Source: Magnolia sinica (Eukaryota; Streptophyta; Magnoliopsida; Magnoliales; Magnoliaceae). From it: a stretch of DNA of 64,000 bases. How positions within the stretch are numbered: the stretch's first letter is position 1; each line of letters begins with the position of its first letter. The stretch covers positions 5,270,001-5,334,000 of the forward strand of contig NC_080577.1 in assembly GCF_029962835.1 (NCBI RefSeq), read 5' to 3'. Under the pieces are notes generated by a model, which worked only from the letters and a program-made list of their open reading frames with translations, made no database searches and was not told the origin of the DNA. Made by a program: the position numbers and the translations under genes. Shown here piece by piece: positions 1,001 to 47,515 of this stretch.

Positions 1001-1462
1001 GAGCGGTGAAACCCCGCCCCACCCAAGACGGTACAACCCTTATTGTGAGGCCTACCTTTATTATGTATCCTGTATCCATGCCGTCCATCTGTTTTTCCAG
1101 ATTAATTTAGTGTATTTTTCCAAGAATGAAACAGATCCAATAATCAGGTGGACCATATCATAAGGAAACAATGGTGACTAAATGCCCTACCATTAAAAAC
1201 TTCTCCGGGCACACCTTAATGTTTCCATAGTGTTTATTTGCCATCCAATCCGTTGATAGGGTCACGTTAATAGTTAATCACCACTATTTCCTATGGTATG
1301 GTCCACCTAATAATTGGATCTGCTTCATTTTTGGAATAATGCCCTAAATTAATATGGAAAAAACGGATGGACGGTGTGGATACAAATTGCATACATCAAG
1401 GTGGCCCCCGCGGTAACGGCCGCACCGTCTTAGGCAGTCGGGTCTCACCTAATCCGCTCTCC
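1001..1462. mobile_element. Foldback (MITE-like) element
   Basis: One arm starts with GAGCGGTGAAACC and AAGACGGTAC. The other ends with CACCGTCTTAGGC and CACCTAATCCGCTC, which is the reverse complement with a few changes. Inside are the family core words (AGGTGGACCATATCAT, TTTATTTGCCATCCAATCC, TGGTATGGTCCACCT). No coding capacity. The outer-arm type GAGCGGATTAGGTG recurs at 34 kb, 38 kb and 46.85 kb. Confidence 0.75.
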
Positions 1463-1539
1463 TCAAATGCAGTGGAGCCAAATTGCTACATTCGGTAGGT
1501 CGTCTATCAGTCAGATTATCTAGTGGGACCCACTACTGA

Positions 1540-1830
1540 TGGAAATTTATTTAAGGCCACATGGAATTATCAAACCATATTCGAATCAACGGTGGTAAAT
1601 AAAAACAGTTAATGGTCAACATTAAGAGCTGGAAAGTAAACATAAGTGACGGCCGTGATCTTCTCATAAATATCATTTTGAAAGCATGATCGATCCATAA
1701 CAAGGGCCACAAATCGGACAGTTCAGATTGATGGATAAGCATGCCACGTGCAATGCTTAGAGGTGGCTCACCATGCCTCCGTTCTTCCATTTCTACCGTA
1801 TCATCTCCCTCCCCCAGCTGAAGTGATAGC
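1540..1830 (-). repeat. Dispersed repeat family C, copy 1
   Basis: The reverse complement of GTTCTTCCATTTC..ACCGTATCATCTCCC matches the copy at 35085-35560 (GGGAGATGATACGGTGG, GGCGGAAGAAC). No protein signal. Looser matches to the same family lie at about 6600-7000. Confidence 0.45.
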
Positions 1831-1892
1831 ACCTATTCAACGCCACTGTGGATGGACGCGGATTGCCACCTGCCCACAGTGGACTCGGAGAC

Positions 1893-2297
1893 TATGTGGG
1901 GCCCACCGTGATGGATGTGTTTTATGCAATGCCCTCATTTTAACAGATCATTTCCGGGCATGAGTCCAAAAAAAAGAAGCACATCCAAGGCTCAAGTGGA
2001 ACACACTACATGAAATAAGGCTGATAATGATGACCACCGTTGAGACGTTCTTAATGCCCACCAGGACGTTTAGTTGCCATCGAGCCTGTTCATAAGCTCT
2101 CATAAGCTCACATTCATATAGATGAAGAAACAACAGAAATATCAGCTTGATCAAAAATTCTACAACTCTCAAGAAAAATTTGACGGCGGGCGCTCAGTCC
2201 TCACTGCATAGTCCACTTTGAGTCTTGAATGTATATCAAGAGATAATATGATTAAATGAATGGACAGCATATATAAAACACATAACGGCAGGTCTAA
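1893..2297. mobile_element. Foldback element, diverged
   Basis: Starts TATGTGGGGCCCACCGTGAT, then CATGAGTCC, CTCAAGTGGAACACACTAC, ATATCAGCTTGATC, CCTCACTGCATAGTCCACTT and ATGGACAGCATATATAAAAC. The order matches the family consensus; the distal arm has several small gaps. Confidence 0.65.
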
Positions 2298-2299
2298 TA

Positions 2300-2690
2300 C
2301 ATTATATGTGTTTTACTTGCATTGTTCATTTTTTTTTTTTTTATAGATGATTTAAAAACATGAGCTCAAGAAATAAGGCACGTCCAAAGCTCAAGTGAAC
2401 AATATCATAATAAAAATAGAGACTATTGAAAGAGGATGGTTGTAAAAATTTCTTAAGGCCGATGAAATTACAGATCAAGCTATATATGTGCTTTCCCAAA
2501 ATCCTGTGTATGTGACTTCATAAGCATCATGGTGGGCTTCAAGAATGTTTTAATAATGGTGTCACCGTCCCCACTATATCATATGTAGTGGTCGTGATTT
2601 TTGGGCTCATATCCTAAAGTAAGCCGGCAAAAAGCATGAGTGGCATGAATGAAACATGTCTGTCACACATGCAACATGGTGAACCCAAAA
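2300..2690. mobile_element. Foldback element, diverged
   Basis: Directly follows the previous copy. Landmarks are AAACATGAGCTCAAG, AAGCTCAAGTGAACAATATC, CAGATCAAGCTATATATGTG, GTCCCCACTATATCATATG and GATTTTTGGGCTCATATCCT. No coding sequence. Confidence 0.6.
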
Positions 2691-2875
2691 GGTTGTGACC
2701 TGGTCTTTGAGTAGGGAGTGGATTAGGTGTGCCAGAGCCTTACCTAACCTAGTTAAGCCATGATTATGACCTTCATGTATGCATAGTATATCCATGTCAT
2801 CCATATGCTTTTAGTGATCATTTTTGGACACAAGGTGAAAATGAAGTGGATCCAAATTTCAAGTGGATGACACTC

Positions 2876-3533
2876 TTATGCAAGGGAGGACGTGAGGTCG
2901 AGCACTGTCTTCATCAAGGATAACTACTCTGAATCCACGGAGCTTCTCTGGACTACTCATAAAGACTTCTTGAATCCACGAGAAAAGAAAGCAAGAAAAT
3001 AGAAATAAATTTTAATAAATTCAAGTTTTAATTGATCCATTGAAATAAACGAGTTCACAACCCTTTAAATAGGAATACCAAGCAATAAGAAAGATATCAT
3101 AAGCAAACTGAAATTAAAATTTCTAAAAATTCGTAACTTACTGTAAATACTAAATTTACTTTTTATAGTAAATTTCCTATGTGGCTTAGCCACGATATTC
3201 TCCTAATTATTCTAAGCACTAAAGGCCAACAGATGAAGAGTTATAATCAAACTAAAACTTACTATTCATAATAAAAATGGAAATAAACATGGAATTTGAC
3301 TATCGATATGATGGAATTTCACAAATTCGGCGTAGGTAACCCGTCATAGCTGGGTTGGTTGGCTAAAGTAGCTTGTCCTACCCCAAAATCATATATGGTA
3401 CGTCGAGTAACTTATTCCGATTTATGAGATATGTCTGTTTTAAGGTTTTAACGGTCTTGATGACTTTTGCTTCTGATTGGGCCTTCTTTGGTCCATCTTA
3501 AACATGAAAGTGTCCGTGCCCTACTCTATATCA
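2876..3533 (-). repeat. 3' LTR of the short gypsy-type element
   Basis: Direct repeat of 5027-5705. It shares GAGGTCGAGCAC, ACGGAGCTTCTCTGGACT, CTATGTGGCTT and TACCCCAAAATCA in the same order. Confidence 0.8.
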
Positions 3534-8100: not shown

Positions 8101-8452
8101 TTCCCACTTCGATGTATGTGTTTCATTTATGTTGTCCGTCTGTTCTTTTTGGTTCACTTTAAGCAATGAGTTTAAATTTGAAGCATATCCAAACCTCAAG
8201 TGGACCACACCATAAAAGTGGTAGGGATAATTACGTCCATTGTTGAAACCTTATTAGGGGCCATAGTGATGTTTATTCATCATCCAATCCACCCGTACGA
8301 TCACACAAATGTTATTATCCCTACTATTTTCCAGGGCACAGTCCACTCAAGCTTTGGATGTGCTTCAGTTTTGGACTCATAGCCTAAATTGAGTTGGAAA
8401 CGGATGGACAATGTGGATAATTACATGTGCATCACAGTGGGCCCCACAAAGT
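8101..8452. mobile_element. Foldback element
   Basis: Left arm GATGTATGTGTTTCATTTAT; middle AACCTCAAGTGGACCACACC; right arm GCACAGTCCACTCAAGCTTT and ATCACAGTGGGCCCCAC. The two arms are reverse complements with scattered changes. The loop is short. Confidence 0.7.
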
Positions 8453-9669
8453 TTATTCACCGCCCTATAACATGGCAAGTTACTACACAATCTGCATCCA
8501 TAGCCACCATGTATGTTTTAGCATATGTTGAAATATATTTTATATGTACTAATATTGGGGTTTCTAATTTTGATTTTCCAGAATAGAAATGCAATGGCTT
8601 TGCTCTTTAGATAGCCTTTAAAATGGACTACTAAAATGAGTTTTATATCCATTCATTTGTTTGGAAGGCTATGCTACACTTTAGGTTAAAGAGTGAAATA
8701 TTCTGATTTTTTGGAACTAAACAATATTGCCCTCTTAATATACAGAAAATGTGTTCTTGTAGACAACGTTATCTACTAAATGGGTCCCCGGTGATGCACG
8801 CAGCTCTACAAATGGTCCACATGCAACATAGAAAATTAAAAAAGGTTAAGGTTGGCTAAGTCTTCCATCCATCAAAATCTCATGTGTATGTCTAGAGGTA
8901 TCTCTCTTTTGCACCCCATTACATTAGAATATCAACCAAAAAATAATCAGAACCAAAGTTCAAGATGCCAGAGAGAGAATTTGCAGAAAGTTGCTTGAAG
9001 TAGATGGAAAGTGGATTGCTTGCGTCACTAGCCACAAGGGGGATATCCCTAGCGTACGACTTTACGAGGTCCACTAATATTTGTGTTTTAGTCATGTATT
9101 GTTGTCTATCTATTTTACCATATCAAACTCAAAGCTTAGATAAACCACATTATAGAAAATAATTAGAATATTGACAACTTCCCACTATGATGTTTGTATT
9201 TTACTCATGTTGTCTATCTTACTAGTTTAGATCCAAAGCTTAAGTGGACCACACTATAGAAAACAATAGGAATATTTAAAACTTAGTGATGCTCACAAAC
9301 CTACCTTAATGAATACAAAATACATTTATAATTGGATACGAAACTTATGTGACCGTAAGTTTTCAACAATAAATGCCCAATTTCAACTAATTTAAATAGA
9401 TAGGCGAATATATCACGTCGGCCCCACGGATTTGTGCCATCATGTTGGCGGGTGCCGCACGCAATCTGCGTCCGGGTGGGGACCTCCCCTTTTTCTTGTG
9501 CGCCCAGTCGCATGATTGCCTCTCTCTCCCGTGCTCTCTTTCCACGTGCATAGCACGTGCCACGCCTAGTAAAGAGCAGTAATCGTTAGACAATTTCTTC
9601 AATCCGTCTTATAAACTATGTGCTTGTTTGGATGCATCGATCCATCTGGGCTAGGAGGTACGCGGGTTG
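8453..9669. other. Intergenic with two half copies of the foldback family
   Basis: Two successive half copies lie at about 9065-9165 and 9185-9300. Each runs from GTATTTTACTCATGTTGTC-like text to AAGTGGACCACACTATAGAA-like text, so one arm appears duplicated in tandem. Nothing else is recognisable. Confidence 0.5.
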
Positions 9670-10085
9670 CACGGCGACTCGCGACTCAATGGTTCCTGTG
9701 CGACCCATATTGGACTATTTTATTTATGCCATCCATCCAAATTTTTTCATCTCAACGTGAGCCAAAATGGGATCTAATTCTCAAGTGGACCACACCACTG
9801 TTTTTAACAGTGGTGATTGAATGCTTATCACAAAAAACTTCATGCGAGTTATAGAAGTTTTGAATTAAGCTGGTATTAGGACTTAAGAAGTTGGATGGGA
9901 AATAAAACAGTGGCTCTGGGAAGTTCGTAACGGTGTGTTCAATCACCACTGTTTTCCAATGGTGTGGTTCACGTTAGATTTGAATCTCCCTTATTTTTAG
10001 GCTCGCGGCCTAACATGAGCTGTCAAAATGAATGGACGGTGTGGATAAAACACACACATCATTGTGGGGCCCACATTGCATCGAC
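9670..10085. mobile_element. Foldback element just upstream of PTAC7
   Basis: Left arm TATGCCATCCATCCAAATTT and AAGTGGACCACACCACTG; right arm CAATGGTGTGGTTCACG and ATCATTGTGGGGCCCACA. Its right end is about 130 bp before the PTAC7 start codon, so it lies in the proximal promoter or upstream leader. Confidence 0.75.
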
Positions 10086-10213
10086 CAGTAGGAACGTCGA
10101 GTATGCAATCTGCATCGTCTGGCGAGAGGTTCACATCCTTCACACGTACGGCTCCCGAGCATGCTTTTCCAAGATGATATAAGCCGATAAACGGCAGAGA
10201 GGGAGAAGCGAGC
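10086..10213 (+). promoter_or_regulatory. Putative PTAC7 proximal promoter and leader
   Basis: The 128 bp between the foldback element and the start codon contain a TATA-like GATATAAG at about 10176-10183. That is only about 30 bp before the ATG, so it may not be the true TATA box. No transcription start can be set from sequence alone. Confidence 0.3.
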
Positions 10214-13200
10214 ATGGCTTTCTCTTCTCTGCATTTCATCAGCTGCCCTTTGTCTTCTCCTGTAAATCCATTTTCTACCCTTTTTTCTCGTTACTCGTTT
10301 CCGTCCGTCTTCGTTTACTTTCTGTAATAGCACCCTAATGCTCTCTTTCTCTCTCTCAGAAAATCGAAGGCAGAGCAGAAATTCCATGGCGTTTGAACAT
10401 CTCCTCCATGGCGCAGGTTAGCAATCTCTCTCTCTCTCTCACTCTATATTATTTCGATATTTTTCCTTTTTCTTGAATTCAAATGGGCATCCGGACCACA
10501 GAAATCGTCGGAGAAGAGCGGACGCGGGAGACGGATATGGCGACGGAGAAAACTGGTACGTTCAATTTACCTAGGGTTTGATTTTCAAGTGAAAGAAAGT
10601 GATTGGATTTTTTCTTTATTCTCATTTTCTCGAATTTCAATGTCAATTCGACTGTGGCTACTGAGCATCTGTTGATGATTATGCTATAGGTCATTTGAGT
10701 GCTCTGTATCAATATCTCAAAGGGAAATTATTGGCCCATGGTTTGGTGATCCAGACTGTTGGTCTGGCGGGCCCCACTGTAGATGGGAGATGCCCCAGAA
10801 AATATCCAAGAGATCCAAATCCATTGATTGGTGGCATTTACATGGATGGTTATGGAAAAAAAAGGGAGGTTATTAGGATTTACAATCTGGGAGGTTTTTG
10901 GGGCCACTCCCCGATGGGACCCATCTAATCAGCTGCATGGATGAACATTGCAAGGCCCCTGAAAGTATGGAATCCTGATGCATTTCCTGCATTGTAGTAT
11001 TTGCTAACACTTGGTAACCCTATTATTCCTCTGTCTTAAAACCCTACTTTCTATTGTGAGATAACATACACACATATACACATGGATGGAAGTGCAATTA
11101 AAAAACACATAAGATACAGAGAACTGATCAACTGCTAATATTGGTCTTGCTTACTACTACAACAACTACCACTACTATTGTATTTGAGAACTAATCTCCT
11201 ACAGGCAATGACACTGTAATTTCTATCATTCCTGCCATATGGCACTTGTATAGAACATCTGCACCATGAAAACAGCAGGCCCCATCACAAAGATCACTCA
11301 TCTCTAAAATCAGGCTCACTCATATGATGGTCCACACCGTTGAGTCTCATTGATTCTAATGGTGTGCTCCACCCGATGAGTGGACCAGTCTGACTTTTGT
11401 GCCAGGTGATCTTCATGATAGAGATACTCTTTGCAACGTGTGGATGTTCTTAAAAAGTGCAATGTTGGCAGCGAAGTTAGGCCTACATGACAAGTTATGG
11501 TGCCATCATCAGTAGGCGATCAACCTTCATTATAGTTTTGGTGACTTAATTGATACAAGTTCAAAGAAGATGATAACGTGTCTCATGAATGTTAGACCAG
11601 ATCATTTTCATACTTTTTACAAACTCCCAAGAAAGTATGCATTAGGTTCTTTGCATTTACATGATTACTAGGGGATATGGGGCGTGTGATGCACGTGGAG
11701 TGAGTGGATAGAGAGAAAAGGGAGGGAGATTTGGAGGGGAGATAAAGAAAGGAGAGAGGTAGAGGGAAAGGTGTGGGCTACACGTAGGGGACATGAATTT
11801 CTCGTAACACCTGTTACAGGGAGTTCCTGTAACCCAAAGCTCTGCTGGCCCACCCCGATGTCTGCATGAAATCCACTCCGTTCATCAATTTCTCCAGCTC
11901 ATGTTAGGATAGCGGCCTAAAAATGAGGCAGATCCAAGACTCAAGTGGGCAACAACATAGGATATCGTGGGGATAGAAACACCCACCATTGAAACCTTCT
12001 TGGGCCATATCGTGGTGTTTATATGCTACCCAACTTATTTGTAAGGTATTCCCACTAGGATGAAGGGAAAATACAAATATTAGCTCGATTCAAAATTTTT
12101 GTGGGCCCTAAGAAGGTTTTGATGGTGGGCATTCAATCCCCCACTGTTTTTTTTTTTTTTTTTAAATTTTTTTTGGTGGTGTGGCCCACTTGGTTATTAG
12201 ATCTATCTCATTTTTGGACTCTCATCCTATTATAAGTTGGCAAAACTGATGGATAGAGTGGATTTCAAATGGACATCTTGGTAGGCATCTAGAGCTTTAG
12301 CTTACAGGAACTCCCTATAACACCTATTACAGGAAACTCACATCCACAAGCAGGTGCATGCTACAAAGAGAAGGGAATTGTGGGCAACTCATCTCATTGT
12401 TCCCCTTGCTGTGGCCAACTTGATGCTTTGATCCGCATAATTTTTGGGTTGATGTCCTAACATGAGCATACGTGATAGACGTACGGAGTGGATGTCACAC
12501 AATCATTAGGATGGGCACACAAAACTTTTGCCTCATGGTCACCCTACTAGCTTAGTGTGGGAGCCAGCTGCACATGGACAGGTTGGTGCGGGCTACGCTC
12601 ATTAAAAGAAGTTAAAGAAAGCAGGTGTTATATCTTTCAAAAAAAAAGAAAGCAGGTGTAATCTACATCGTCCCTTTGCAGTAAAATCTCAACCGTTCCC
12701 TTCCAAGCAGCCACATTTTTATGATGAATTTACCCTCTTAATCAATGCTTTGAACACTAATTGCAAGAGGAAAAGTGCCCAAAGCTATTGGCACTATATT
12801 TAGTAGAGATAAAGCGATTGGCATTATGTTTAGCAGAGATAAAGAATGGAGACGTTCTCATCTTGGTTATTATGTTGCAGAAAGTATTCAAGTAGAAAAC
12901 AAGAAAAAAAAAAGTAATCTTTGAGGAGGTTTTCAACTTGCTTTGTTGTTCTCGTTTGAGAGAAATCTCTACTGAGTATCTCAATGGGGTCTTTTGTTAC
13001 ATAGTCATGTGAAGAAAAATTCAGACACTGAATTTGGGCTTTAAAAAAGCTTCGATGTTCTGGGTTGACATTCTTGGGACTGTTAGAGGGTCTCACAAAC
13101 TTAACATGAGTTTTTTGAGTTTGGATTGATCCTCGACAAGGTCACCTCAGGCATACCGTTAAAGGCAATTTGCATGGCAATCAAACCTAGGTCCATCACC

Positions 13201-18065: not shown

Positions 18066-19204
18066 ACTTTTCATAAAAGGAAAGCCCAAAAGGTACGTTG
18101 CAGTCTCTCAGCCAATGAGGTCTAAGTCCATGCCACGGTCTGGGTCTAGCTTTATTTCAGTGGTTGCGCTTTATCTAAAGAAATGTTTTCTTGCCCTTTG
18201 GTCATTATCATTGTTATTTTTGCGATGACTGGGAAAGTCAGGGGTGAGAAAGTGAAAAAGATTTAAAATTTCAGAAATACTACTAATTTATATTAGAAAT
18301 ATCATTTAATATTTGGCCGAATCTCTCCTAAAATAAACTGCATGGGCAAAAATGTCACAGCTCTTTGCTTTATACATTGAAGAGATTAACTATTATTATC
18401 ATTATTATTACTGGCGTGTGCAATGCAGTATAGAGAAAGACTAAGGGAAACGGTGAGGCTACAGGCAACTGCCTGTACATATAGAAAGAATAATTAAATA
18501 GTGGACAGCCCATTCTAACTTTTTAAAAATAATTCTGTGACTTATTTGAACTTTAGATCACTATTTTTTTTCTAAGGATGAAATCTTAAGATATAGGGAA
18601 TGAATGTCATATTATCATCACGATGAGGTCACACAACTAGCTATGAAGAAAGAGGAGGAAAGGTGGGTGTGGGCTACTCGTATAAAAGAGTTAAGGGGGG
18701 TGGACATCACACTATCATCATGCTGGCCCACACAACCAACACAGAGGAGAAAAGGTGGGTATAGACTAGTCAGTGTGAAAGAGTTGAAAATAATAATAAT
18801 AAAAAAAGACCTAGGGTTGGTTGAGTAAACAAAAGGGAGAAAAAACCCCAAGTCCCTCCCATGACTAAATCCTTGGGTAAAATTAGTCAAACGCAGTTGC
18901 TTGTGTTATAAATGATATAGATTAGCCGGGTTTTTTTTTTTTTCATACTGAGTTGTCTATACCTAGTATTTGTAAAAATGATTATGCTTTACAACAAGCA
19001 TATGATGTGATCCTTTTAGGGCAAGTGGAGATATTTTAGCCAAGAGCCAAAACCTAATTACAATCAAGAAATTAAGGCAAAGGCTAGAAATGTAGCCACT
19101 ACTACCCAAGAGAAAGGTAACGAGAGGCAACAACATGGCACTGTCCAAAGAGGATGCCAAACAGATTATTACTCTGGGCGTGGCTTCGGTCGATCCTTAA
19201 CTAT
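18066..19204. other. Intergenic with a tandem duplication
   Basis: At about 18604-18690 and 18714-18795 a stretch of about 110 bp is repeated (ATCATCA, CACACAACYA, AGGTGGGT, AAAGAGTT). A poly-T run sits near 18930. No gene seen. Confidence 0.45.
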
Positions 19205-19640
19205 GGAGCCAAGCCCACCTTGATGTATTGTGCCTACGTTGTTCATCCATTTTCACAGCTCATTTTAGGGCATGATCCAAAAATTGAAGCAGATTCCAAT
19301 CTTCGGTGGACCACAACACAAGAAACGGTGGTTGTTGGCCATTAAAAATTCTTCTCATGGGCCACAAAAGTTTTGTATCAAGCTGATATTTGTGTGGTCC
19401 CTTCGTCCAGGTCTTTGTGACCTTATCAATAGGTTGGGTGGCAAATAAACATTCCGGTGGCCCCCAAGAAGTGTTTAACGGTGAGCATTCAATCACCACG
19501 GTTTCCCGTGGTGTGGTCTACCTAAGTTTTAGATATGCTTCATTTTTGGTATCTTGTCTTTTAATGAGTTTTCAAAATGGATGGACAGAGTGGATGTAAG
19601 GAACATACATCACGGTGGGATCCATAGTCCTGCACCCGGT
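19205..19640. mobile_element. Foldback element
   Basis: Left arm AAGCCCACCTTGATGTATTG and CAGCTCATTTTAGGGCATGA; loop ATCAAGCTGATATTTGTG and AGGTTGGGTGGCAAATAAAC; right arm CGTGGTGTGGTCTACC and ATCACGGTGGGATCC. Non-coding. Confidence 0.7.
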
Positions 19641-20029
19641 TACTCTACCACCATTTGCACACGTGGCATTTGTGCAGGCACATCAGACCATCCGAATTAT
19701 GAAGCATTGTAGATGGGTCATATCTCAAAATTCACAATGATCTAGAAATCGTAACCATGTGATTGATGGTTGTCAAATGGATGGATGGTTGAAAGAAAAA
19801 TTGTGAATACTTCCAATTCTAATAGAGAACAGATGGTTATTACCATATTCCGTGTAGGTTGTCGTTTATGCTAACATTACATCTGGAGTTATTTCAGAGA
19901 TTTGCACGGTCCAGATCGTTTTGAAACTATGTCACGCGTACAATTGAATAATCAATATTCTCAAATGATGGCAGTTTAGTACACACTTAAACGCCTTCAC
20001 CTCGTAATTACCTCAATCCCCTTTATTTT
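19641..20029. other. Intergenic, nothing recognised
   Basis: No open frame of note and no repeat I could match inside the window. Confidence 0.4.
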
Positions 20030-26014: not shown

Positions 26015-26065
<51 letters not shown>

Positions 26066-28745
26066 TAAATGGTTTGGTGATGTATCAACCAAGAATTGCA
26101 CTAGTTGAAAGGAATGAGTTGGTACAAGTTGAAAGCTTTGAAAAGGAAAAGGGAAGGCTCAAAAGGATGTGGGTGGAGGTAGTAAGGAAAAACTTGAAGA
26201 TCTATGGTCTAATTGAAGTTATGGCTCCTGAGGGAGTAGAATGGTAGAAATTACTTCAACACTTTTTCCATGATTGGAAATATTACTAATCTAGAGAGAG
26301 AAAGATTGGATACTTCGATACATACACATTCGCCTTGTAAGATCATTAATTTGATACATGGCAGAGGATGATTTATGCCCATTTGAGCAGCCAATGTAAA
26401 CATAGGAGATGCGGATCTCCATCCAAACTGTCAAAAATGATATGCCTGCTTAGGCAACGCCTAGCACCAAAATCTAAATGATTAGGCTATCCTAACCTCT
26501 TACTTGTGGACATTTCTCTGTGGAATACATGCCATTGAAAGTTCTTCAATCCAATCGCCCATTACGTAAGATGCAGATTTGGTGGATCAGGCAAACCACC
26601 AAGCTTGGTGGATCTATGACTGTGGGGCCCATTGTGATGAATGTTTTTTTTATATCCATACTATGAATCTGTTTTGCCAGCTCATTTTAGGGCATGAGTC
26701 CAGAAAATGAAGCAGATTCAAATATCAGGTGGACCACACCACAGGAAACGGCTGTGATTGAACGCTTACCGTTAAAAACTTTCAATGGCCTACCGCAATG
26801 TTTATTTGCCATCCAACCTGTTTATAAGGTCACACAGACTTGGATAAATAGAAAAAACAAATATCAGCTCAATCCAAAACTTTTGTGGCCTCAAGAAGTT
26901 TTTAGTGGTGGGCATTCAATCACAGCCATTTCCTGTGATGTGGTCCACCGAACCTGCTTCATTTTTGGTTGCATGCCCTAAACTTAGCTGGCAAAACAGA
27001 TGGGCAGAGTGGATATAAAACACATGCATCACAGTAGGCCCCACAGTCACGGATCTACCGAGCTCGATGGCTCCACATATCCACCGAATCCGGGTCCATC
27101 ACTTGGAAAATATTTGAAATCTAGAATTATCTTCTAGTCAATTTCATGTGGCTCAAAATTCTTACAGGCTACTGTTGATGTACCCGACAAGCTTATAATC
27201 GGTGCCTGCATGCGCATGGACGATCATACTCTGCCATACTATCAATGCCACTCTCTAATAAATGACAATGAATAGAAAAAGGGCCAATGACTCGATCCAA
27301 GGAGTACGCTGCGGGCCACATCTAGCCAAAACAAGCTTGGATCACGTGGACCCACTCGTCGGGTAATCCACATCACGTGCGGATCGTATCAGAAGGTTCT
27401 TCTAGCGTGCGCCAATTGCCTGGTGTCAGCCGACGCCACTTTTTTCTGCTAGCTACGCACGAGATTACATACGAGCACACGATAAACTACGACCGCGAGA
27501 TAGTTATTCTAACGTACGCCGCAGGGAAAGAGACCCTTGTCTCTGTGTTAGGACTCAAGCTCAACTTGCCTAGCCCACACGCAACGATGTCCGGATGATC
27601 ATAACCATTTATGCTGGTCCACTATGCAATAACTACTTGAAGAAGATGATCGCAACCAATGAATGGTCGAATCTCAACCGTAGATATTGACCTCGGGAAC
27701 ATGCGTTCGACGTAAGATTTGGATTATGGCCCAACGACATTAGCTCCAATAAGATGATTGTATTGATCATGGGACCATCTCACCATGTGGATCAAAGTGC
27801 CACGCGTGCTCGAGGATAACACCGCGAGGCGCACGATAGAGCAACTGTCAGCCCTCTTTGGACAAACGCACGTAGCTCCGCATAACTAACGTGCGCCAGA
27901 CTGAGAAGCTTACCCCAAAATGAAAACAATCAGTACACGTTAGCACACTAGCTGATCTGCGCCGCGGAGGGGCCGAACCCAGCCGAAACGAGAACAGGCG
28001 GCGCATGTTAAGCTCAAGCGGCTAACGTGCGCCGAAGAGTGGAGGAAAAGAGAACGGAGGAACGGGCGCGCCTTTACCTGCAAGTCTCCGCGACCCTCGG
28101 ATCCGTCTCCCCCAGCGTCTCCATCTGGATCTTCAGCCCCGCGTCGTAGCACGCGATGGACCGTTCCATCTGCCCCAGCATAGAGTGCGTGTCGCCAAGC
28201 TGCATGAACCCAGAGAAGGCCGCAAGCGCGTGGTCGGGCCCATGCGCCACGTCGGGCACCCCGACCGCCTGCTCCAGCACCGGCACCGCCTCCTCGAACC
28301 GGCCCAAGCTGCAGTGGATCGCGGCCACCACGTGTAGGCTCATGGCCAGCTCCAGGCTCGGCTCCCCTTCCCCGGCGCACCGCTCGAATGATCTCGACGC
28401 TCGGATCGCGAAATCCAGGGCCTGGTGGGCGTTGCCGCCGGATGCGATCGCATCGCGCGCTTGCTTGAGAAGGAAAGGGCCGAGATCGGGGTTTTCGAGC
28501 GACGAATCATCGGATATCGACTTCTCGGGCTGTGGCGAGGTTTTCTTCCTGACGCGGGAGGACGAGGAGGGGGATGGAGAAGGGGTTTTCTTCGGAATCG
28601 GGGATCTGGATTTGGTTTGTTGGGAGGCGGGACGGTCTTCTTCTTCTTCTTGATGGGTTTGGATGGGAGGATCTGAGCCGTTTGGGAGGAGAATTTGGAG
28701 AGGTGGGGTTTTGGGAGGGGTTTTGATGGAAACCAGGCCAGGCAT
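21457..28745 (-). CDS. KLCR1: Kinesin-light-chain-related TPR protein (KLCR1/CMU type), 3 exons
   Basis: Exons on the minus strand are 28745-28078, 24212-23304 and 21691-21457, joining codons split as AG|G at both junctions with GT..AG introns; 603 residues. Residues 1-90 are disordered and rich in Pro, Ser and Lys, starting MPGLVSIKTPPKTPP. From about 90 to 565 come TPR helices, seen as recurring A..LGRFEEA, LGRFDEAIFSYEKAL, MGRVEDAIEILEYIL and YKIDEAAELFEEA. The end is basic (RSRNRKAKSLENLL). Plant KLCR/CMU proteins bind cortical microtubules and IQD scaffolds and hold microtubules in place during cellulose deposition. Length and N-terminus fit the KLCR1 subgroup best (recalled, not aligned). 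Exon 1 is GC-rich against AT-rich introns. No damage seen. Confidence 0.9.
21692..23303 (-). other. KLCR intron 2 (1.6 kb)
   Basis: Donor GTAAGA at 23303; acceptor TATTACAG beside 21691. Several short open frames occur, but none shows a protein family or codon pattern. No repeat family recognised. Confidence 0.7.
24290..24600. repeat. Dispersed repeat family B, copy 4
   Basis: CAGGTCTTCAATTCTGACAA, ATTGGTCTG and GATTGGAAGATCC match copy 2 in order. Lies just inside the KLCR intron 1 acceptor. Confidence 0.55.
24870..25104. repeat. 91 bp tandem repeat with telobox-like CCCTAAACCCTAA
   Basis: About 2.5 copies with the CCCTAAA word at 24879, 24971 and 25062. Each unit runs CCCTAAACCCTAACACCACC, then ACGACCATTCAAGC, then TTGATGGCCAGTTGGTGAC. 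Units are nearly identical, so the duplication is recent. Confidence 0.75.
25169..25192. repeat. (GT)n microsatellite
   Basis: About twelve GT units, next to the start of the LINE fragment. Confidence 0.85.
25245..26330 (+). mobile_element. 5'-truncated LINE (non-LTR retrotransposon, RTE-like) in KLCR intron 1
   Basis: The + strand encodes PYLFALAMDELTRYLNEE followed by SWCMLFVNDK, the finger-palm region and YxDD-box area of plant LINE reverse transcriptases. The box reads FVND where FADD is usual. Further on, in shifting frames, come LNDLKLVKLKQ-like text, EMRMLRRMSGMT and a VAPEGVEW-like end, the usual C-terminal order of such RTs. The 5' part of the RT and the whole endonuclease domain are missing. 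Several stops and frame changes are present, and a SINE (25866-26059) interrupts it. It lies antisense to the host gene. Confidence 0.75.
25866..26059 (+). mobile_element. tRNA-derived SINE, copy 1 (full length)
   Basis: 194 bp flanked by a perfect 13 bp duplication AGACTTTAAATGG (25853-25865 and 26060-26072). Near its 5' end are an A-box-like TAGCGCATCTGG and, about 50 bp on, a B-box-like GGTATCGATCCC, the spacing of a tRNA-type pol III promoter. It ends in C-run plus AAAA and a long (GA)n tail (26018 onward). It inserted into the LINE fragment. Two more copies are at 30257 and 34009. Confidence 0.85.
26574..27100. mobile_element. Foldback element in KLCR intron 1, well preserved
   Basis: The outer arms pair over more than 60 bp: GATTTGGTGGAT, CACCAAGCTTGGTGGATC, TGACTGTGGGGCCCA against GATCTACCGAGCTCG and ATCCACCGAATCC. 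The core holds AGGTGGACCACACCACAGG and TTTATTTGCCATCCAACCTG. One of the least diverged copies in the window; its RNA could form a long hairpin. Confidence 0.8.
27101..28077. other. 5' part of KLCR intron 1, CpG-rich with a recurring motif
   Basis: The word GTGCGCC occurs at about 27407, 27892 and 28027, twice as AACGTGCGCC, with related AACGTACGCCG at 27513. The stretch is rich in CpG compared with the rest of the intron. No open frame. It may be a diverged transposon end or simply GC-rich DNA next to the first exon. Confidence 0.4.
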
Positions 28746-32896: not shown

Positions 32897-33412
32897 CAAA
32901 TGTTTTGGAAACGGATTGGCTACTCCCCCTGTCACCAGCCAATGGCTGGTGATCGGTGCTCTATGGGCCCCACTATGATGTATGTGTTTCATCCATGCTG
33001 TCCATATATTTTTCTAGATCATTTTATATTATTAGACTAAAAATAAGGTATATTTCAATATCAAGTAGACTACATTATAGGAAACAGTGTTGAATTAATG
33101 TCTACCATTAAAAACTTTTTGGGGGCAATAAAAGTTTTGGATCAATCTTACAGATGACCTAATTAATAGATTGAATGTCAAATAAACCGTACAGTCGGCC
33201 TTAGGAGGATTTTAATGGTGGATATCCAATCACTATTGTTTTCATGTGGTGTGGTCCACCTGAGATTTATATCTCCTCATTTTTGGGTATCAAGCGTTAA
33301 AATAATCTTAAAAAATGGATGCAACAAATACGCTGTGGTGGGCCCACAGAGAACCGACCATCAGCCATCGGGCTGGTGGCAGGGGAGTAGCCAATCCGTT
33401 TCCCGATGTTTC
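32897..33412. mobile_element. Foldback element with private arms GGAAACGGATTGGCTACTCC
   Basis: The left arm carries GGAAACGGATTGGCTACTCC and CACCAGCCAATGGCTGGTG. The right arm carries the reverse complement GGAGTAGCCAATCCGTTTCC and CAGCCATCGGGCTGGTG. These outer words occur in no other copy in the window, whereas the core (CAAGTAGACTACATTATAGG, GTGGTGTGGTCCACC) is shared. Confidence 0.8.
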
Positions 33413-33475
33413 CGTGAGATTGTTCAACTTTGGCCAGGTCATGTACGGACATGACCTGCGCTGAAATGGATTGCA

Positions 33476-33975
33476 TGCTGAGTAACTCAGTGTGCTTAGT
33501 CTAATGAGTAAGTTCTGTGAGGCATGTGACGCCCACCACGTGTTATGTGTCTTATCCACCCTTTTAATCTGTTTTAACAGCTTATTTTAGGGTAGTAGCT
33601 CAAAATCCAAATATATCATATCAAGTGGACCACACCACAGGAGACGGAACACCTACCATTGAAATTTTAATGGGGCTACAAAGGTTATAAATCAAGCTGA
33701 CATTTGTGTTTTCCCTTCAACCATTATCATTGTCTGTGTGGTCTTAGCAACAGATTGCATGACAAATTAACATCACCGTGGGCTCTAGAAAGATTTTGAC
33801 GGTGGACATCATTATCCTCACTGTTTCCGTGATGGGTTCCCCATGAGCTTTGGATATACTTCAATTTTAGGCTCAACTCCTAAAACTAGATGAAAAAACG
33901 GATGGACAACGTGGATGAGCCACGTACATTCATCGTAGGGTCAAAACAGATTACTCAACACCATAAAAGGATACT
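33476..33975. mobile_element. Foldback element
   Basis: The outer arms pair GATTGCATGCTGAGTAACTC with GAGTTGCATCC and GATTACTCAAC. The core has CAAGTGGACCACACCACAGG and AATCAAGCTGACATTTGTG. It lies tail to head with the copies on both sides. Confidence 0.65.
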
Positions 33976-33993
33976 GAGTTGCATCCATTGTGG

Positions 33994-34612
33994 AGCGAAT
34001 TAGATGTTTTTTTTGTTAGCTTGTCAGTACACACCAACTGTCAGTACACACTCCACCGTTAGTCACCCCGCGAATCGATACCGAGTGCGGATTAGATGTT
34101 ATCCGTGTAACAAGTTAGCCGTGTTTCCCTGACCGTGCCGCCTACCTTGATGTGTGCGTTGTATATATACATGCCGTCCATCATTTTTTCTCGATCATTT
34201 TAGGCATGGGCCCAAAACTGAATTAGATCGAAATTTCAAGTGGACCACACCAAAAGAAATAGTGGTAATTGAATCCTCACCATTAAAAGCTTCCTAGAGC
34301 TCAACTTATTTTTTTATTGCCATCCAAACTGTTGGTAAGGTCAATCAGACCTGGACAAAAAGAAAACATAACTATCAACTTGATCCAAAATTTCCATAGC
34401 CCCCAAAAGGTTTTTAATGATGGGAGTTCAATCCCTAATGTGTAGGTCCACTTGAGATTCGAATATATTTTATTTTTCGTGATCAGGACCTAGAATGAAC
34501 TGGAAAGCTGATGGACGGCTTGGATACATAACAAATAAATCAAGGTGTGTCCCACGGTCTGAGAAACACCCACTAAAATATTGTCCGGGTAACACCTAAT
34601 CCAGCAGCGGAA
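33994..34612. mobile_element. Foldback element carrying a SINE in its left arm
   Basis: Left arm GAGCGAATTAGATGTT, interrupted by the SINE at 34009-34086 and resuming GCGGATTAGATGTTATCC. Right arm GGGTAACACCTAATCC. The core holds CAAGTGGACCACACC and TTGCCATCCAAACTGTTGG. Confidence 0.75.
34009..34086 (-). mobile_element. tRNA-derived SINE, copy 3 (5'-truncated)
   Basis: The reverse complement has the B-box-like GGTATCGATTCGC, GGGGTGACTAACGGTGG, GTGTACTGACAAGCTAAC and an A tail. The A-box half is missing. The 14 bp flanks GCGAATTAGATGTT and GCGGATTAGATGTT (33995-34008 and 34087-34100) differ at one base. Confidence 0.8.
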
Positions 34613-35065
34613 AATACGTGGGCGCCACCGTGATGTAACATTTTATAACATTCTCTCCGTCCATTAATTCCCCTAGCTCACTTAAGTGCACTGTCCCGTA
34701 AGTGAGTCAGTTCAATATCTCAGGTGGGCCACACCAGAGGAAAGAGAAAAGATGGAAACGACAATAGTTGAAACCTTCCGGGGCCCACCGTGATGTTTAC
34801 ATGCCATCCAAACAGGTCACGAGGTTATGTCCATTGGGATAAACGGAAAATTCAAACATTAGCATGATCCAAAACTTTTGTGACCACACAAAGGTTTCAA
34901 TGGTGGGCGTTCAATCCCCACAGTTTCCCACGGTGTCGGGCAGTTTAGTTTTGGATCTGCCTCATTGTTGGAATAATGTTAGTATGAACCGTAGAAACCG
35001 ATGGATGGAGTTGATTTCAGATAGACATCACGGTGGGCCCTACGGCTTCCGCTGCAGTGCAGAGG
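34613..35065. mobile_element. Foldback element
   Basis: Left arm GGGCGCCACCGTGATGT and ATCTCAGGTGGGCCACACC; loop TGATGTTTACATGCCATCC; right arm TGGTGGGCGTTCAATCCCCA and ATCACGGTGGGCCCTACGG. It abuts the previous element almost without spacer. Confidence 0.75.
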
Positions 35066-35560: not shown

Positions 35561-37659
35561 CATCTTCCTACTCGGTGGGGTTAGGGGTGTCAACGGGCCA
35601 GGCCTGGGTTTGGTATTGGCCTTTTGAACTGTTTCTGGCGGAGTCATCGGGGCTGTCTATTCAAATATTTTATTTTGTAGGCATAGGCCGGTTGATTGAC
35701 GATCCTCAGTAGAGTTTTTGGTTCAAATGGGCTTATACCATGACATGGTTAACTTTAATGTTTTGTAGTCCTAAAACAATTTGTTTATTTTCCAAAGAAC
35801 AAAATGTACATACGACACAAAATAAAATGTACTTTTAAAAATGAATGTGAACCTTACCAAAAATTGAAAATTGGTAATTTGATTCATTTATTTTAATTAT
35901 ATAGTTGTAAACCTATGGTAAGGCCTCTTTTTTTTCAAAGCTTTATATAATATATAATTACACTAATGTTATGCATTAATTCTGAAATATTTTCACCATC
36001 GTGATTTATCTTTAATAAGTTTTGTCTTCAAACTTTGATAAATGGCTAAATTTGCTTCATGGCTTGTGCGCGTGTCATTTGATTGTTTATTTATTTCTTT
36101 CTTACATATATTTTTATTTTCAATGGAGGGAAGGATGATGTTTTTTGGTTTCATTCATTCTTTATTCCTTGATTTTCTTTATAATTATTTTTAAAATTTT
36201 AAATTTATTTAATTTTTATTTTTTAAAAAATTTTAAAGTTTTTTTTAATTTTTTTTTTTGTATAATTAATGAGAGTTTGTAAAATGAAATAAGATGTAGA
36301 AGAATACAGTAATGAATGCCTTATGACATATATTAAATGAGCTAATTTATGAACCTACTGTGGCTAAGCCAGGGTCCAAAAATCAGATTAGTTGAAGCTT
36401 CCAAACCTTCAATTCATTGACAATTGCTTGAGACAGGACTACTAGTATTTTCATTATTAATTATCTAATAAAGAACACTATGCAATAACCGGATTACCTG
36501 TGTGTTTTTTTCTTTTCTTTTTTGTCATATTACATCATATTGGAGACCAATATTTTTTAACAGTTCTAATTTTGACTTACTAGCCTGCTATGCAATTTCT
36601 ATGAAAATTTTAAGCGCCTGTATTTCATCCATAGCATTCCGCAGGAGTATAAAAAGCTAACCTACCATAAAGTGCTTTTGCACACACGAGTAGCCAGATC
36701 AGCAATCTAGACTGTTGGTAAAAGCCCCACTTCTGATGGGCTTTCACCAAAAACTCATCACTGTTGGCCACTTGCATTGCTATGGTGATTTCATCAAACG
36801 TTTTTTTGTTTTTTTGGAAGTATGTGTTATTCAAAGTGGACCCAAATCAACCGACTATTCATGTTGATTATTGGACTTGTTTGATCTAGACCGTCCACTT
36901 TTAAATGTCGGATGGAAAAGTTCCTTTAGTTGATGTGATTTACAACCATAGTGAAGTCGAGCCTATATTTATTTACATTACTCGATGAATTTTCGAGAAT
37001 TACAATAGGCTCTTTATTCCTGAAAAGCAAGCATGGAAAACTTGTCTCCAAAAGGGCTTTCCAGAGGTAGGTGATTGGATAAGCCAAAGCCTCAGTCTCC
37101 AAAAGGGGCTTTTAAGAGGTTGGTGGTTAGATATTAGTGAAATTGACTCCCATTCAAGGATTAAAAATCAGTTTCTGTCTTCCCATAGAAACTCTACTCC
37201 GTCTTGGAGAGATGTTCCATGAATGGTGGGTCCCACACTTTAAATGGTTTACATGGCTGTATGTAAGTGCCACGAGAAGGATGAGTCACCACCGTCGTCC
37301 AATGATCTATTTCAACATCCAATATTCACCAGTCAGATGTCTGGATTGCTCAACCAATCTGATTTTTTGGGACGTGAATCGCTTGTAAGCCTTGAAATTC
37401 TAAACTCCTAAACCCTTACATGGCACAATAAAAATGTGAATCCGGATCCTCTACTTGTCATGAGCAGGGAAATCCTACTTTCCTGCTTCGTGATTAGTCC
37501 ACATCATCACTTACATTGTCACCATGATGTGATTCAATTAGATTGCAACGAGCAGGATTTTTCCGTGGCAAGCAAAGGATCTGGTTTCTAAAATGTACCA
37601 TGTGTACGTCATAAGTTGGCTGGCGAAAAAAGGTGCACTTGATATTTTTAGATTATGAG
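35561..37659. other. Intergenic, AT-rich; possible hAT end
   Basis: TAGGGGTGTCAACGGGCC at about 35583 resembles the end of hAT-like elements and recurs at about 40364, but no matching right end was found for either. 35860-36320 is very AT-rich. No gene. Confidence 0.4.
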
Positions 37660-38118
37660 CAAATTAGGTACAGACCTAACCTTACTCAAGATAGTGCGGC
37701 ACCTATTATGAGCCATGCAAATAATATGTATTCACGGGTTGTTCATCTAGTTTTAAATATTATTTTAAAGCATGAGCTGAAAAATGAAGTAGATTCAATT
37801 CTTGAGTGGACATGGAAAGCAACATTGATTGAACAAGCTTTAATTCAAAACTTCCCAAGGCTTACTCCAATGTTTCCACAATTATTATTTTCCATCCAAC
37901 CTATTGATAAGGTCACGTGAACCAACCCGGATGAGGGGAAAAAACAAATATCAGCTTGATTCAAAACTTTTGTAGCTCATCAAAGGTCAATCAAAACTGT
38001 TTTCTATGATATGGTCCACCTCAAAATTAAATATATTTTATTTTTAGGTTCATGCTCTAAAATAATCTGGTAAAATATAATATATGTACCAAGGTGGGTC
38101 CCACGGTCGGTCAAGGGT
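37660..38118. mobile_element. Foldback element
   Basis: AAAGCATGAGCTGAAAAATG, CCATCCAACCTATTGATAAG, AATATCAGCTTGATTC, GATATGGTCCACCTC and AAGGTGGGTCCCACGG in family order. AT-enriched and fairly diverged. Confidence 0.65.
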
Positions 38119-38199
38119 TCAAGTATCCAGAGGTGGTGAAATCCTACTACAGGGTGAGTGTGCGTGTAAAGAAAAACAATAAAAAAGAAAAGAAAAAAA

Positions 38200-39385: not shown

Positions 39386-39388
<3 letters not shown>

Positions 39389-39418: not shown

Positions 39419-39421
<3 letters not shown>

Positions 39422-43075: not shown

Positions 43076-43114
43076 TGCTATGTGGTCCCTCCATGGATAT
43101 ATATATATATATAT

Positions 43115-43235
43115 GTCTCTATCCACGTCATCCATCCATTTTTCAAGATCATTTCAGGGCATGAGCCCAAAAATGAGAGAGATCAAAGTCTCTAGTAGAC
43201 CACACTACAGGAAAACAATGGTGATTGAATGAGGG
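43115..43235. repeat. Half copy of the foldback family
   Basis: ATCCACGTCATCCATCC, TCAGGGCATGAGCCCAAAAA, GTAGACCACACTACAGG and ATGGTGATTGAATG; no loop and no second arm. It follows the (ATCC)n array directly. Confidence 0.6.
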
Positions 43236-44730: not shown

Positions 44731-45009
44731 TGATACGGAATATCTTGTACGTGGAGAAAGTAAATGGTAAGAATTAAAAAAAAGAAGAAGAAAAAGAAAA
44801 GATCCCGTTATCAACTTTTCAAAGTTTCTTTTACGGCCTGTTTGGTTTTCACTTGTTTGAAAATGAGGGAGTAATTCCACCGAGAAAACCGGTCCAGTAT
44901 TAAAGATAACAATGTTTCACGTTCCGTCAATTTTCTTTCACGTCTTTGTATACTCTACAATTTGATTAATATATCCTTGAAGGACATGGATTGCGTCCTA
45001 CCCCCGCTC

Positions 45010-45490
45010 CAATGGCAATCTGTCCGGGTAAGGATTTGTGAGGCCAACTGTGATGTAAGTGTTTTATCCACACCGTTCATCGCTTTTATCAAATCGTTTT
45101 AAGGTATGAACTTAAAAATGGAGCAAGTCAGCAATTGCAGTGGACTACACCAAAGGAAGGTGTAGTGATAATGACACTTACTGTTGAAACCTTTTTAAAG
45201 GCCAACATGATTTTTATTTTTTATTTTTTTATCGATCCAACCTATTCATAATGCCCCGTAGATGCAGATGAAATGAAAAAACAAATATCAAATTGATCCT
45301 AAACTTCTCCAGCTCATAAGAAGTTTTTAATGGTGGACTTTCAATCCCCACTTTGTGGTCAACTTAAGCCCTGGACCTACTGCATTTTTTTCGTAATACC
45401 TTGAAATGAACTGAAAAAAACTATTAACGGCGTGGATAAAATATTTACATCACAGTGGGCCCTACAGATCCCTGCCCGGACGGGGTAGTT
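45010..45490. mobile_element. Foldback element with private arms CTGTCCGGGTAAGG
   Basis: Left CTGTCCGGGTAAGGATTTGT and CAACTGTGATGTAAGTG; right CATCACAGTGGGCCCTACAG and ATCCCTGCCCGGACGGG. The core has AGTGGACTACACCAAAGG and ATCGATCCAACCTATTCATA. Confidence 0.75.
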
Positions 45491-45679
45491 TTGTTTTTCG
45501 GGGGGCGGGGGTAGGGTTGACCGTGAATCACGGGTGTGGATTCCATACACTTTTTTGAAAGACGTTGGAAACGCTTTTTTACAGTGGTAAACTTTGAAAA
45601 GACATTTAATTTTTAAAATGAAGAGATTTAGGACGCATCAATTTTTGGTAACCAATGGAAAAACCTTGCCTGCGAATTA

Positions 45680-45880
45680 TTGGATATGTCCAGCCCAAGG
45701 TCTCTTTTTGTGACTACAAGAACCACCGGATAAACTTAGAACAATGAAAAGAGTCCTTCAACTGGATTCCATTCAACTATAAAAATCCAAAATTAGCACG
45801 GTTTTCTTTCCATAAAAGTGAGAGGACAGCCTTATAACTTTGTTAAATAAAGAAGTATTTTTGTTTTTTTACATAAAACC
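45680..45880. repeat. Dispersed repeat family E, copy 1
   Basis: TATGTCCAGCCCAAGGTCTC, TTAGAACAATGAAAA and GAGAGGACAGCCTTATAACT recur in order at 60515-60705. Confidence 0.65.
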
Positions 45881-46109
45881 GCTCCTGGTTAAGGCTATTG
45901 GGAAAAAAATGTCTGCTGTCAAATTATTTAAAGCAAACTGTCTAATCTTTAAAAATACGGAGAAAAACCAATCCATTGACTCTGATCAATGATTGCATAC
46001 GGAAAATTGCCATTGAAGTGTCAAAATAATAATAATAATCCAAATTAAAGTCTAAATTGCCCCTCAGCCCTTTCATTTTCACAATTATACCCTATTTGAA
46101 AGGGTTGTG

Positions 46110-46445
46110 CAGGCGTGAAATACTATGGGCCCATCGACAGTTTATGAAATCAATGCTGTCTATTTATTTTGTCATCTCATTTTAAGCCATGAGCCCAAAA
46201 ATGAGGCAAACCTGAATTGAAAATGGACTACACTCAAGGAAATAGTGGTGAATGAATGACTACCATTGAAATAATGTTGGGGCCATAAAAGTTTCTCATT
46301 AAGCAGTTTTCCCTTTATCCACGTCCGTATGACCTTATGAATAGGTTGGATGGCCCTGATAAATATCAGGGTGGGCCCTAGGAAGTTTTCAATGGTGGTC
46401 ATCAATATCCCCACCATTTTGTCTAGTGCAGTCCACCTACCCCTT
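46110..46445. mobile_element. Foldback element
   Basis: TCATCTCATTTTAAGCCATG, AAAATGGACTACACTCAAGG, GAATAGGTTGGATGGCC and GTCTAGTGCAGTCCACC in family order. Its right arm runs into the triplication listed next. Confidence 0.6.
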
Positions 46446-46805
46446 CCATCTGGGCCATTTCCTGGATCGTGGCCTAAATTGAACTGGCCTATTTAATGGA
46501 TGTATTTGATCAGACCCATACATCACGTGCCCTAGGAAACTTTCAACAGCTGGCGTCAATATTTCCACTGTTTTGTGTGGTGCGGTTCACATGGCCTAAA
46601 TGGGTTGGTGTATTCAATGGATGGGTTTAATCACACCCATATAGGCCCTAGGAAACTTTCAATGGTTGGCGTCAATATCGTGACTGTTCCATCTAGTGCG
46701 GTCCACCCATGTTTTGGATCTACACCATTTCTAAACTCATAGCATAAAATGATATGACTTATTTAATGAACGGGCTTGATCAGATCCATAGGTCATGGTA
46801 GGCCT
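46374..46805. repeat. Three tandem copies of a foldback right arm
   Basis: GCCCTAGGAAACTTTCAA recurs at about 46376, 46530 and 46646, each followed by CAATATYNCCACTGTT, a GTGCGGTCCAC-like word and a TTTAATGGATG..GATCAGACCCATA-like end. Units are 115-155 bp. Confidence 0.7.
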
Positions 46806-46849
46806 AACTTCCGACCCAGACACATCCATCTCCCTCTCGGGAGCGGATT

Positions 46850-47515
46850 AGGTGCTACCAGGATTCGCCCGACAAGTGCAACCCTCGCAGTGGGGCAATC
46901 TTGATGTATGCATTATATATCCATGTCATTCATCCATTTTTCTAAATCATTTTAAAGCATGAGTGCAAAAAATAAGTAGATCCATATCACATGAGAGACA
47001 TCATAAGAAATAGTGGTAATTGAACGCCCACCATTAAAGCTACCTAAGGTAGATCATAATGTTTATTTTCAATCTATCCTGTTGATAAGGTCATAGACCT
47101 GGATGAAAGAAAAGAATAATATCAACTTGATCAAAAAAATTTATTGCCCACAACAAGTTTTTAACACATAAATATCAGCCTATAATTACAGCTCCTACTA
47201 AGATACAAGCAAATCATGCCCATGTGAAACTCCTGTGGGCCACACGATTAGAAACAGTTAAAAGAGATCAATGATTATAAGAAATCCAAACTATTCATAA
47301 CACGGGGCAATGGGTGAACTATATATAAAGAGATCGATGATTATAAGAAATCCAAACTATTCATAACGTGGGGCAATGGGTGAACTCTATATATATATAT
47401 CACACACACACAAAGCTTCTATGGCCCCACGAAAGTTTCAACCGTCAGCATGTAGTCTCTATTGTGTCTCTCACTTAAGTTTTGGATCTACTTCATTTTT
47501 TAGTATTGTGAACGC
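46850..47515. mobile_element. Foldback element, interrupted in its loop
   Basis: Left arm GAGCGGATTAGGTGCTACC and GGGGCAATCTTGATGTATGC; loop ATCAACTTGATC; after unrelated DNA (about 47170-47400) the right arm resumes CTTCTATGGCCCCACG and GTTTTGGATCTACTTCATTT. The right outer arm is lost. Confidence 0.6.
47262..47392. repeat. 66 bp tandem duplication
   Basis: AAGAGATCRATGATTATAAG..CAATGGGTGAACT occurs twice with only a few differences, ending in (TA)n and (CA)n runs. Confidence 0.85.

Follow-up and report, generated by a model that had tools for sequence, protein, structure and literature searches.

Introduction

Maize Mu elements (MuDR/Mu) have common ends and differing interiors, and the site of their MURA protein lies ∼25–56 bp from the end. 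About a dozen distinct Mu elements have been described, with similar ∼215 bp inverted repeats and 9-bp duplications (PMC2774946), and MURA binds a conserved ∼32 bp motif in the inverted repeat (PMC3310237). Mutator-like elements (MULEs) in general make duplications of 9–11 bp and have inverted repeats of typically 100–500 bp (PMC3310237), and of the miniature inverted-repeat transposable elements (MITEs) surveyed across 207 plant genomes 41.5% were assigned to Mutator (PMC12550479). Here we describe a foldback family that fills much of a 64,000-bp stretch of the Magnolia sinica genome (‘the window’; contig NC_080577.1). Its copies resemble MULEs, MULE-derived plant MITEs and maize Mu in their 9-bp duplications, and the first two also in their long terminal inverted repeats. 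They differ from MULEs and MULE MITEs in that most of their length is arm and in that a subterminal stretch is unrelated between subfamilies of common core; relative to Mu the arrangement is the opposite one, the interior being common and the subterminal part differing.

Three other described systems come close. In the MULEs with multiple long terminal inverted repeats described by Ferguson and Jiang (2012), it is mostly the whole inverted repeat that is repeated in tandem (PMC3310237); the present family likewise has repeated modules, its loop being, on the consensus, a weak direct copy of the arm. Galileo of Drosophila combines a foldback form with subfamilies of divergent inverted repeats and with mixed copies (12/170; PMC3573991). 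All three traits recur here, but Galileo belongs to another superfamily (P), with a 7-bp duplication, and mixed copies number 1/72 in our sample. Tm1 of root-knot nematodes is a Mutator-type family with a foldback form (PMC3169594), a likeness of description and not of sequence. In the literature search, no paper pointed to the present foldback family in its title or the start of its abstract.

We interpret the family as non-autonomous, hairpin-forming DNA transposons of the Mutator (MULE) superfamily, ∼500–550 bp long when complete and divided into many old subfamilies, with ends that are inherited; we put the probability of this reading at roughly 0.85.

Abundance of the family

The assembly (G000) has 1,838,573,281 bases in 127 contigs, nearly all of them in C1 to C19 (69 to 142 Mb each); the window is C5:5270001-5334000, and L-numbers denote loci taken from the same genome. 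With an iterated family profile, 42 merged intervals were recognised in the window, 13,269 bp in all (20.7%), and many of the copies there are marked by long inverted repeats. Applied to 20 sampled 10-kb pieces (200 kb), the profile matched 12 of them over 10,636 bp (5.3%), with 0 matches in the reversed pieces; because family density is patchy, a genome share of 5% is a rough figure only. The core word TGGTGTGGTCCACC occurs exactly at 10,039 + 9,891 places in the genome (19,930), compared with 3 + 5 for the pattern read backwards. The foldback family with a shared core that a first-pass annotation of the window had proposed is thus real, and in this 1.84-Gb genome we read it as a patchy and very abundant family of MITEs of the Mutator type. 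Its copies have the properties of MITEs, being ∼500–550 bp long, non-coding, present in high number and provided with defined ends inside a subfamily. No stop-to-stop frame of at least 130 aa overlaps the S1 copy at 32907–33403, and the window has no Rfam match at gathering scores.

Exact counts of the core words on both strands of the window are low, namely 4 for AAGTGGACCACACCA, 2 for TGGTGTGGTCCACC, 3 for GCCATCCAACC and 0 for ATCAGCTTGATCC. With up to two mismatches they are 18, 25, 66 and 10, figures behind which stands no chance expectation and to which chance surely contributes in the case of short words. Roughly half of the GCCATCCAACC near-matches on the plus strand fall in 42648–43232; this stretch is of low complexity, rich in ATCCATCC-like repeats, and reads as an open frame packed with HP(S/T).

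Termini and target sites

The commonest subfamily, S1, allowed the ends of the element to be fixed. We compared the flanks of 22 S1 tip pairs, 21 of them with distinct left flanks (L073 and L075 have theirs in common, and one was dropped), which represent ∼19 independent insertions; L074 appears to be this insertion again, in the opposite orientation, and L023 and L083 look alike. Identity on the 9-bp diagonal was 116/189 (0.61), against 0.19–0.39 at the other lengths from 2 to 8 and from 10 to 14. The 9-bp duplication is exact in six of the 21 copies (L031, L047, L068, L077, L094 and L099), and the flanks of the S1 copy in the window, AAATGTTTT and CGATGTTTC, agree at 6/9 positions in this register. 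In L077 the S1 copy sits within an S5-type arm (...GGTCAGTAGCCAAATAG / S1 / GCCAAATAGCTACTGAAGTGACGTCACC...) with the duplication GCCAAATAG, and a paralogous arm, L004, retains the unoccupied form of this site, GGTCAGTAGCCCAATCGCTACTGAAGTGACGTCACC, so that S1 arm sequence was absent from the site until the insertion. The duplications abutting S1 arms, together with this unoccupied counterpart, place the outer arms inside the element, and in S1 the arm ends are the true termini.

The first-pass annotation had set the family apart from ordinary MITEs, which keep constant termini. This contrast fails for S1, whose termini are constant, and a similar tip is present in part of the other copies (see below). 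Beyond S1, the 9-bp duplication is exact in L092, whose tips are GCACGCGGTTT and GGACGCGGTTT. Most of the 44 copies examined outside S1, over all tip positions, yielded no duplication candidate; the few others were, by a rough estimate, at a level that could arise by chance and are not used as evidence; the window copy first noted at 11795, with 7/9 flank agreement for tips GGACATGAATT and GGATGTGAGTT, is compatible with a duplication, not decisive.

Outer arms in the window and in the genome

The outer arms named in the first-pass annotation are present in the window, mostly with few mismatches, and differ between copies. GGAAACGGATTGGCTACTCC is exact on both arms of its copy (32907–33403). 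GGGAGTTCCTGTAACCC at 11819 and GATTTGGTGGATC at 26576 have mirrors within two mismatches at 12299 and 27078, respectively. GAGCGGATTAGGTG is exact at 46841 on the plus strand and at 1446 and 38252 on the minus strand, and is found within two mismatches at 2716, 33993 and 34085. CTGTCCGGGTAAGG at 45020 has no mirror within two mismatches; the opposite arm there is GTCCGGGCAGGGATCTGT. For a wider sample, half-arms were paired at 300–640 bp, later 300–520 bp, which gave 74 pairs and, after removal of two lacking 60 bp on both sides, 72 copies. (A first pairing was rejected; many of its pairs were ∼265 bp apart because the loop resembles the arm.) The 60-bp outer segments match each other above the 99.9% shuffle level in 41 of the 72 copies. 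Mirrored arms are therefore real, though not in every copy as had been claimed, since 31 of 72 fail at this level.

These arms are not private to single copies. Relative to controls in which the patterns were reversed, patterns of all five named arm types recur in the genome, at 25 to 6,765 places versus 0 to 29, so that the term ‘copy-specific’ has to be given up. The S1 end GGAAACGGATTGGCTACTCC has 6,765 exact places (control 0), often as facing pairs ∼500–530 bp apart, and GAGCGGATTAGGTG has 3,488 (control 29). A 30-base stretch of the 11795 arm has 25 places with up to three mismatches (control 0), although an exact 17-base word of it has only three; of its siblings two were compared, L106 having both arms and the core in common with it and L105 the left arm and the core, with a mean column identity of 70%. 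For the copies first noted at 26574 and 45010 the counts rest on patterns blended from both arms, not on the exact words GATTTGGTGGATC and CTGTCCGGGTAAGG. The 26574 pattern has 79 places (control 0), among them both arms of the window copy, with facing pairs ∼420–440 bp apart on C10 and C17. The 45010 pattern, which also takes in the first core bases, has 172 places with up to three mismatches (control 0), the core bases staying uncontrolled by the reversal. Neither the five named arm types nor the classes of the tree test below consist of mirrored outer arms unique to one copy.

On C13:6957100-6967699 the 26574-type pattern is found five times at a regular spacing of ∼2.64 kb, suggesting a tandem array with one copy per unit.

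Arm classes and the core tree

Arms and cores were clustered separately, as had been suggested with the first-pass annotation, on sampled copies: loci L021–L100 are 80 of 95 candidate places picked by the exact core word in the first 4.9 Mb of C1, arm classes were built by single linkage from the outer 60 bp alone, and the tree was built from the cores alone. The two histories agree. Forty-five labelled copies in five classes of two or more need four label changes on the core tree, the minimum, where 1,000 shuffles never gave fewer than nine. Without S1, 12 copies need three changes, a number reached by 3 of 5,000 shuffles. Mean core identity is 0.842 inside S1, 0.671 when S1 is compared with the remaining copies, and 0.627 between copies that belong to different classes other than S1. 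Of the two explanations offered at first, many subfamilies with the same core is thus the one supported. The only mixed copy at the cluster threshold (1/72) is L044 (C1:1918290-1919200), whose left arm end is S1-like and whose right arm is of the S2 type.

In at least 12 S1 copies the small palindrome of one arm is, by eye, centred on CCAAT and that of the opposite arm on a different sequence, with L107 as an exception. This inequality fits the inheritance of both arms from source copies rather than fresh copying from arm to arm at each insertion.

Tip, subterminal segment and core

Among the arms of copies that are not S1 on both sides, 28 of 88 have a tip like GGANNCGGATT outside the core anchor at 7/9 positions or more, against backgrounds of 5.5% in shuffles and 5/87 in flanks. 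At 8/9 or more the figures are 11/88, 0.3% and 0/87; nine of these 11 tips sit 54–59 bp from the anchor, and at least one (L059) is an S1 arm. Between tip and core the classes are unrelated. Their identity over this 47-bp piece is 0.57 (shuffled 0.56), compared with 0.71 and 0.66 over the next two 47-bp pieces, which lie in the core (shuffled 0.57 and 0.58), and the best arm pair for each of 105 class pairs gives 0.62 for the subterminal piece and 0.76 and 0.71 for the core pieces; for this comparison a few copies were classed by eye and L082 by core clade, the tree test having used arm clusters only. Copies of the same class, mostly S1 pairs, have identities of 0.76 in the subterminal piece and of 0.82 and 0.72 in the core pieces, and the two arms of one copy match in the subterminal piece at 0.72 (52 copies), or at 0.66 in the 24 copies outside S1. 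The between-class identities indicate that the shared core and the differing subterminal segment are real and that the latter separates subfamilies, not single copies. What is striking is the complete turnover of a short subterminal stretch while the adjoining core stays 0.66–0.71 alike.

Palindromes (e.g. CCACCAAGCTTGGTGG in several arms) were considered as a mark of the subterminal segment and dropped because their excess over shuffles is weak: a stem reached by at most 1/20 shuffles was found in 7 of 30 arms in this segment, and in 2/30 and 9/30 in the neighbouring core pieces.

The loop resembles the arm in direct orientation (consensus 58–99 versus 214–255, 69% over 42 bp, E=0.002), and parts of the L061 and L074 loops are likewise matched by the arm profile, as if the element had arisen from repeated arm modules. 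The core arms GTGGGGCCCACC and GTGGACCACACC in the window are similar to TCP transcription factor binding sites, which so numerous a family could have spread.

Classification and proposed mechanism

Long inverted repeats, 9-bp duplications and plentiful MULE domains together lead us to read the family as non-autonomous MULE foldback MITEs. Duplications in the 9–11 bp range of MULEs are seen in S1 (0.61 at 9 bp, 6/21 exact), in L092 and in L077. Inverted repeats in the ∼100–500 bp range are seen at 11789–11957/12177–12345 in the window and at 24–202/1026–1203 in L107 (84% identity). Domains of MULE transposases are abundant in the genome, with 150 scored matches among 1,104 candidates.

In the mechanism that we propose, the element would run from a tip like GGANNCGGATT through ∼45 bp of subfamily-specific sequence to the shared arm and hairpin core, the loop, the same parts in mirrored order and a second tip, with a 9-bp target-site duplication on both sides. 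A MULE-type transposase provided in trans would have cut and moved such elements, and every subfamily would descend from source copies of its own, so that the ends are inherited and not made anew.

A candidate for the autonomous partner, promising at first, was L102 with L104 (C3:47319000-47328300), where a 772-aa open frame with MULE, FAR1 and SWIM domains lies between 1.68-kb inverted repeats (L102:380–2058 and 7034–8712 of L102 + L104) that are 97.3% identical and end in (TA)n GAGGAACGCTCAGC. Each repeat holds three foldback copies, one of them cut at the inner edge. Because the repeat does not end in a family tip we do not claim L102 as the partner; a large TA-associated element and an inverted duplication are both possible readings of it. 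In L101 and L103 no inverted pair of exact 12-mers surrounds the MULE gene, one simple-sequence word excepted.

Several points weigh against our interpretation. Among the three MULE loci taken from the 150 matches (L101–L103) there was no autonomous element with family tips at its ends. Outside S1, a clear duplication was seen in L092 only among the 44 copies, and 60 of 88 arms have no tip match at 7/9. S1 is over-represented among the sampled loci because these were picked by the exact core word, and single linkage puts L032 and L079, S4 by eye, under the S1 label in the tree test. Of the 144 sampled arms 52 joined no cluster, and some of these 52 may be unique to one copy. Finally, the role of the subterminal segment as a putative transposase-recognition site is something that we infer, and more weakly than mobilization in trans and inherited ends.

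Alternative explanations

For the divergence of the ∼45-bp segment we consider recognition by the transposase the most likely reason, given the ∼32 bp motif to which MURA binds in maize (PMC3310237). Such a role would account for the need of a source copy to have two matching arms, and also for the exchange of the segment in lineages that had begun to rely on another transposase. A serious rival, which has a real chance of being right though we would not bet on it, is that the segment is unconstrained, with no need of a recognition function, and drifts faster than a core held by host factor sites, by small RNA derived from the hairpin or by exchange between copies. The segment shows no palindrome excess (7/30 versus 2/30 and 9/30), as free drift would have it, and no motif search was made; yet it sits between a tip and a core that are both better kept, and same-class copies, again mostly S1 pairs, keep it about as well as the core (0.76 versus 0.82 and 0.72). 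Only tentatively do we suggest that the segment could be an exchangeable recognition cassette, both mirrored cassettes having been replaced several times, with tip and hairpin core kept, as the MULE transposase was switched. If so, the family would record a series of helper switches, with each replacement copied from arm to arm through the hairpin, and if the segment binds transposase, past changes in transposase specificity could be traced through old families of MITEs.

New subfamilies might instead have formed by recombination that swapped terminal blocks between lineages, as proposed for Galileo, and not by stepwise change. Chimeric copies of Galileo are described in Drosophila mojavensis (PMC3573991), L044 has arms of two classes, and other such copies could be missed with 52/144 arms unclustered. 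We regard this route as unlikely nonetheless: only 1/72 copies is mixed, the S1-like match in L044 is limited to the inner end of the arm, the blocks would need replacement on both arms, and no donor elements for the segments were found, a search that went no further than the three MULE loci.

Membership of another superfamily with long inverted repeats (hAT, P/Galileo-like foldbacks or FB) is very improbable. A foldback form by itself is not diagnostic, but the duplication is of 9 bp (0.61) and neither of the 8 bp of hAT (0.39) nor of the 7 bp of Galileo and P-type elements (0.39).

The idea that ends are renewed in each copy, a hairpin intermediate capturing neighbouring DNA and copying it inverted to the other end, would account for outer ∼47-bp pieces that are unrelated between subfamilies yet match between the arms of one copy, and for the unclustered arms, but it is scarcely credible given that every named arm type recurs, that arm class tracks the core tree with the minimum of changes, that 9-bp duplications place S1 arms inside the element and that the unoccupied L077 site lacks S1 arm sequence; for the arms tested, this new mechanism gives way to the ordinary account of inherited ends.

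Features of the window

The copies placed within the window, with their subfamily labels where they have one, are collected in Table 1.

Table 1. Foldback copies and their parts in the window
Feature	Position	Strand	Remarks
Complete S1 copy, tip to tip	32907..33403	.	497 bp; both tips GGAAACGGATTGGCTACTCC; best-defined element of the window
Left remnant of 9-bp target-site duplication, S1 copy	32898..32906	.	
Right remnant of 9-bp target-site duplication, S1 copy	33404..33412	.	
Subfamily-specific subterminal segment, left arm of S1 copy	32918..32963	+	mirror ∼33347–33392
S8 copy (GGGAGTTCCTGTAACCC arm)	11789..12345	.	inverted arms 169 nt, 73%; siblings L106, L105
S7b copy (GATTTGGTGGATC arm)	26567..27100	.	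tip GGACCCGGATT on right arm; blended pattern hits both arms
S14 copy (CTGTCCGGGTAAGG arm)	44979..45495	.	tip GGACATGGATT on left arm; blended pattern includes left arm
S3 copy	1005..1463	.	GAGCGGATTAGGTG end on right arm at 1446
Left part of copy with GAGCGGATTAGGTG end	46839..47165	.	GAGCGGATTAGGTG exact at 46841; second fragment 47186–47503
S9 copy (GAGTGCGGATTAGATGTTATCC)	34084..34603	.	
S2 copy (ACTCAGT-type arm)	33463..33987	.	adjoins S1 copy
S7 copy (GGTGGATCC-type arm)	19187..19678	.	
Copy with tip GGATGCAGATT	8103..8501	.	tip on right arm
Copy with tip CGATGCAGATT	9687..10117	.	tip on right arm
Near-full copy, no subfamily label	34616..35056	.	
Near-full copy	37658..38127	.	GAGCGGATTAGGTG on minus strand at 38252, in separate short match 38201–38269

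Elsewhere in the genome, L107 (C1:16872615-16873825) is an S1 copy interrupted by several hundred bp of other sequence. By eye, ∼55 bp of core sequence is directly duplicated on either side of this insert, which is longer than an ordinary target duplication.

Two long open frames in the window were also classified by eye: that at 23300–28817 on the minus strand appears to encode a TPR (kinesin-light-chain-like) protein, and that at 60890–63715 on the plus strand an LRR receptor kinase.

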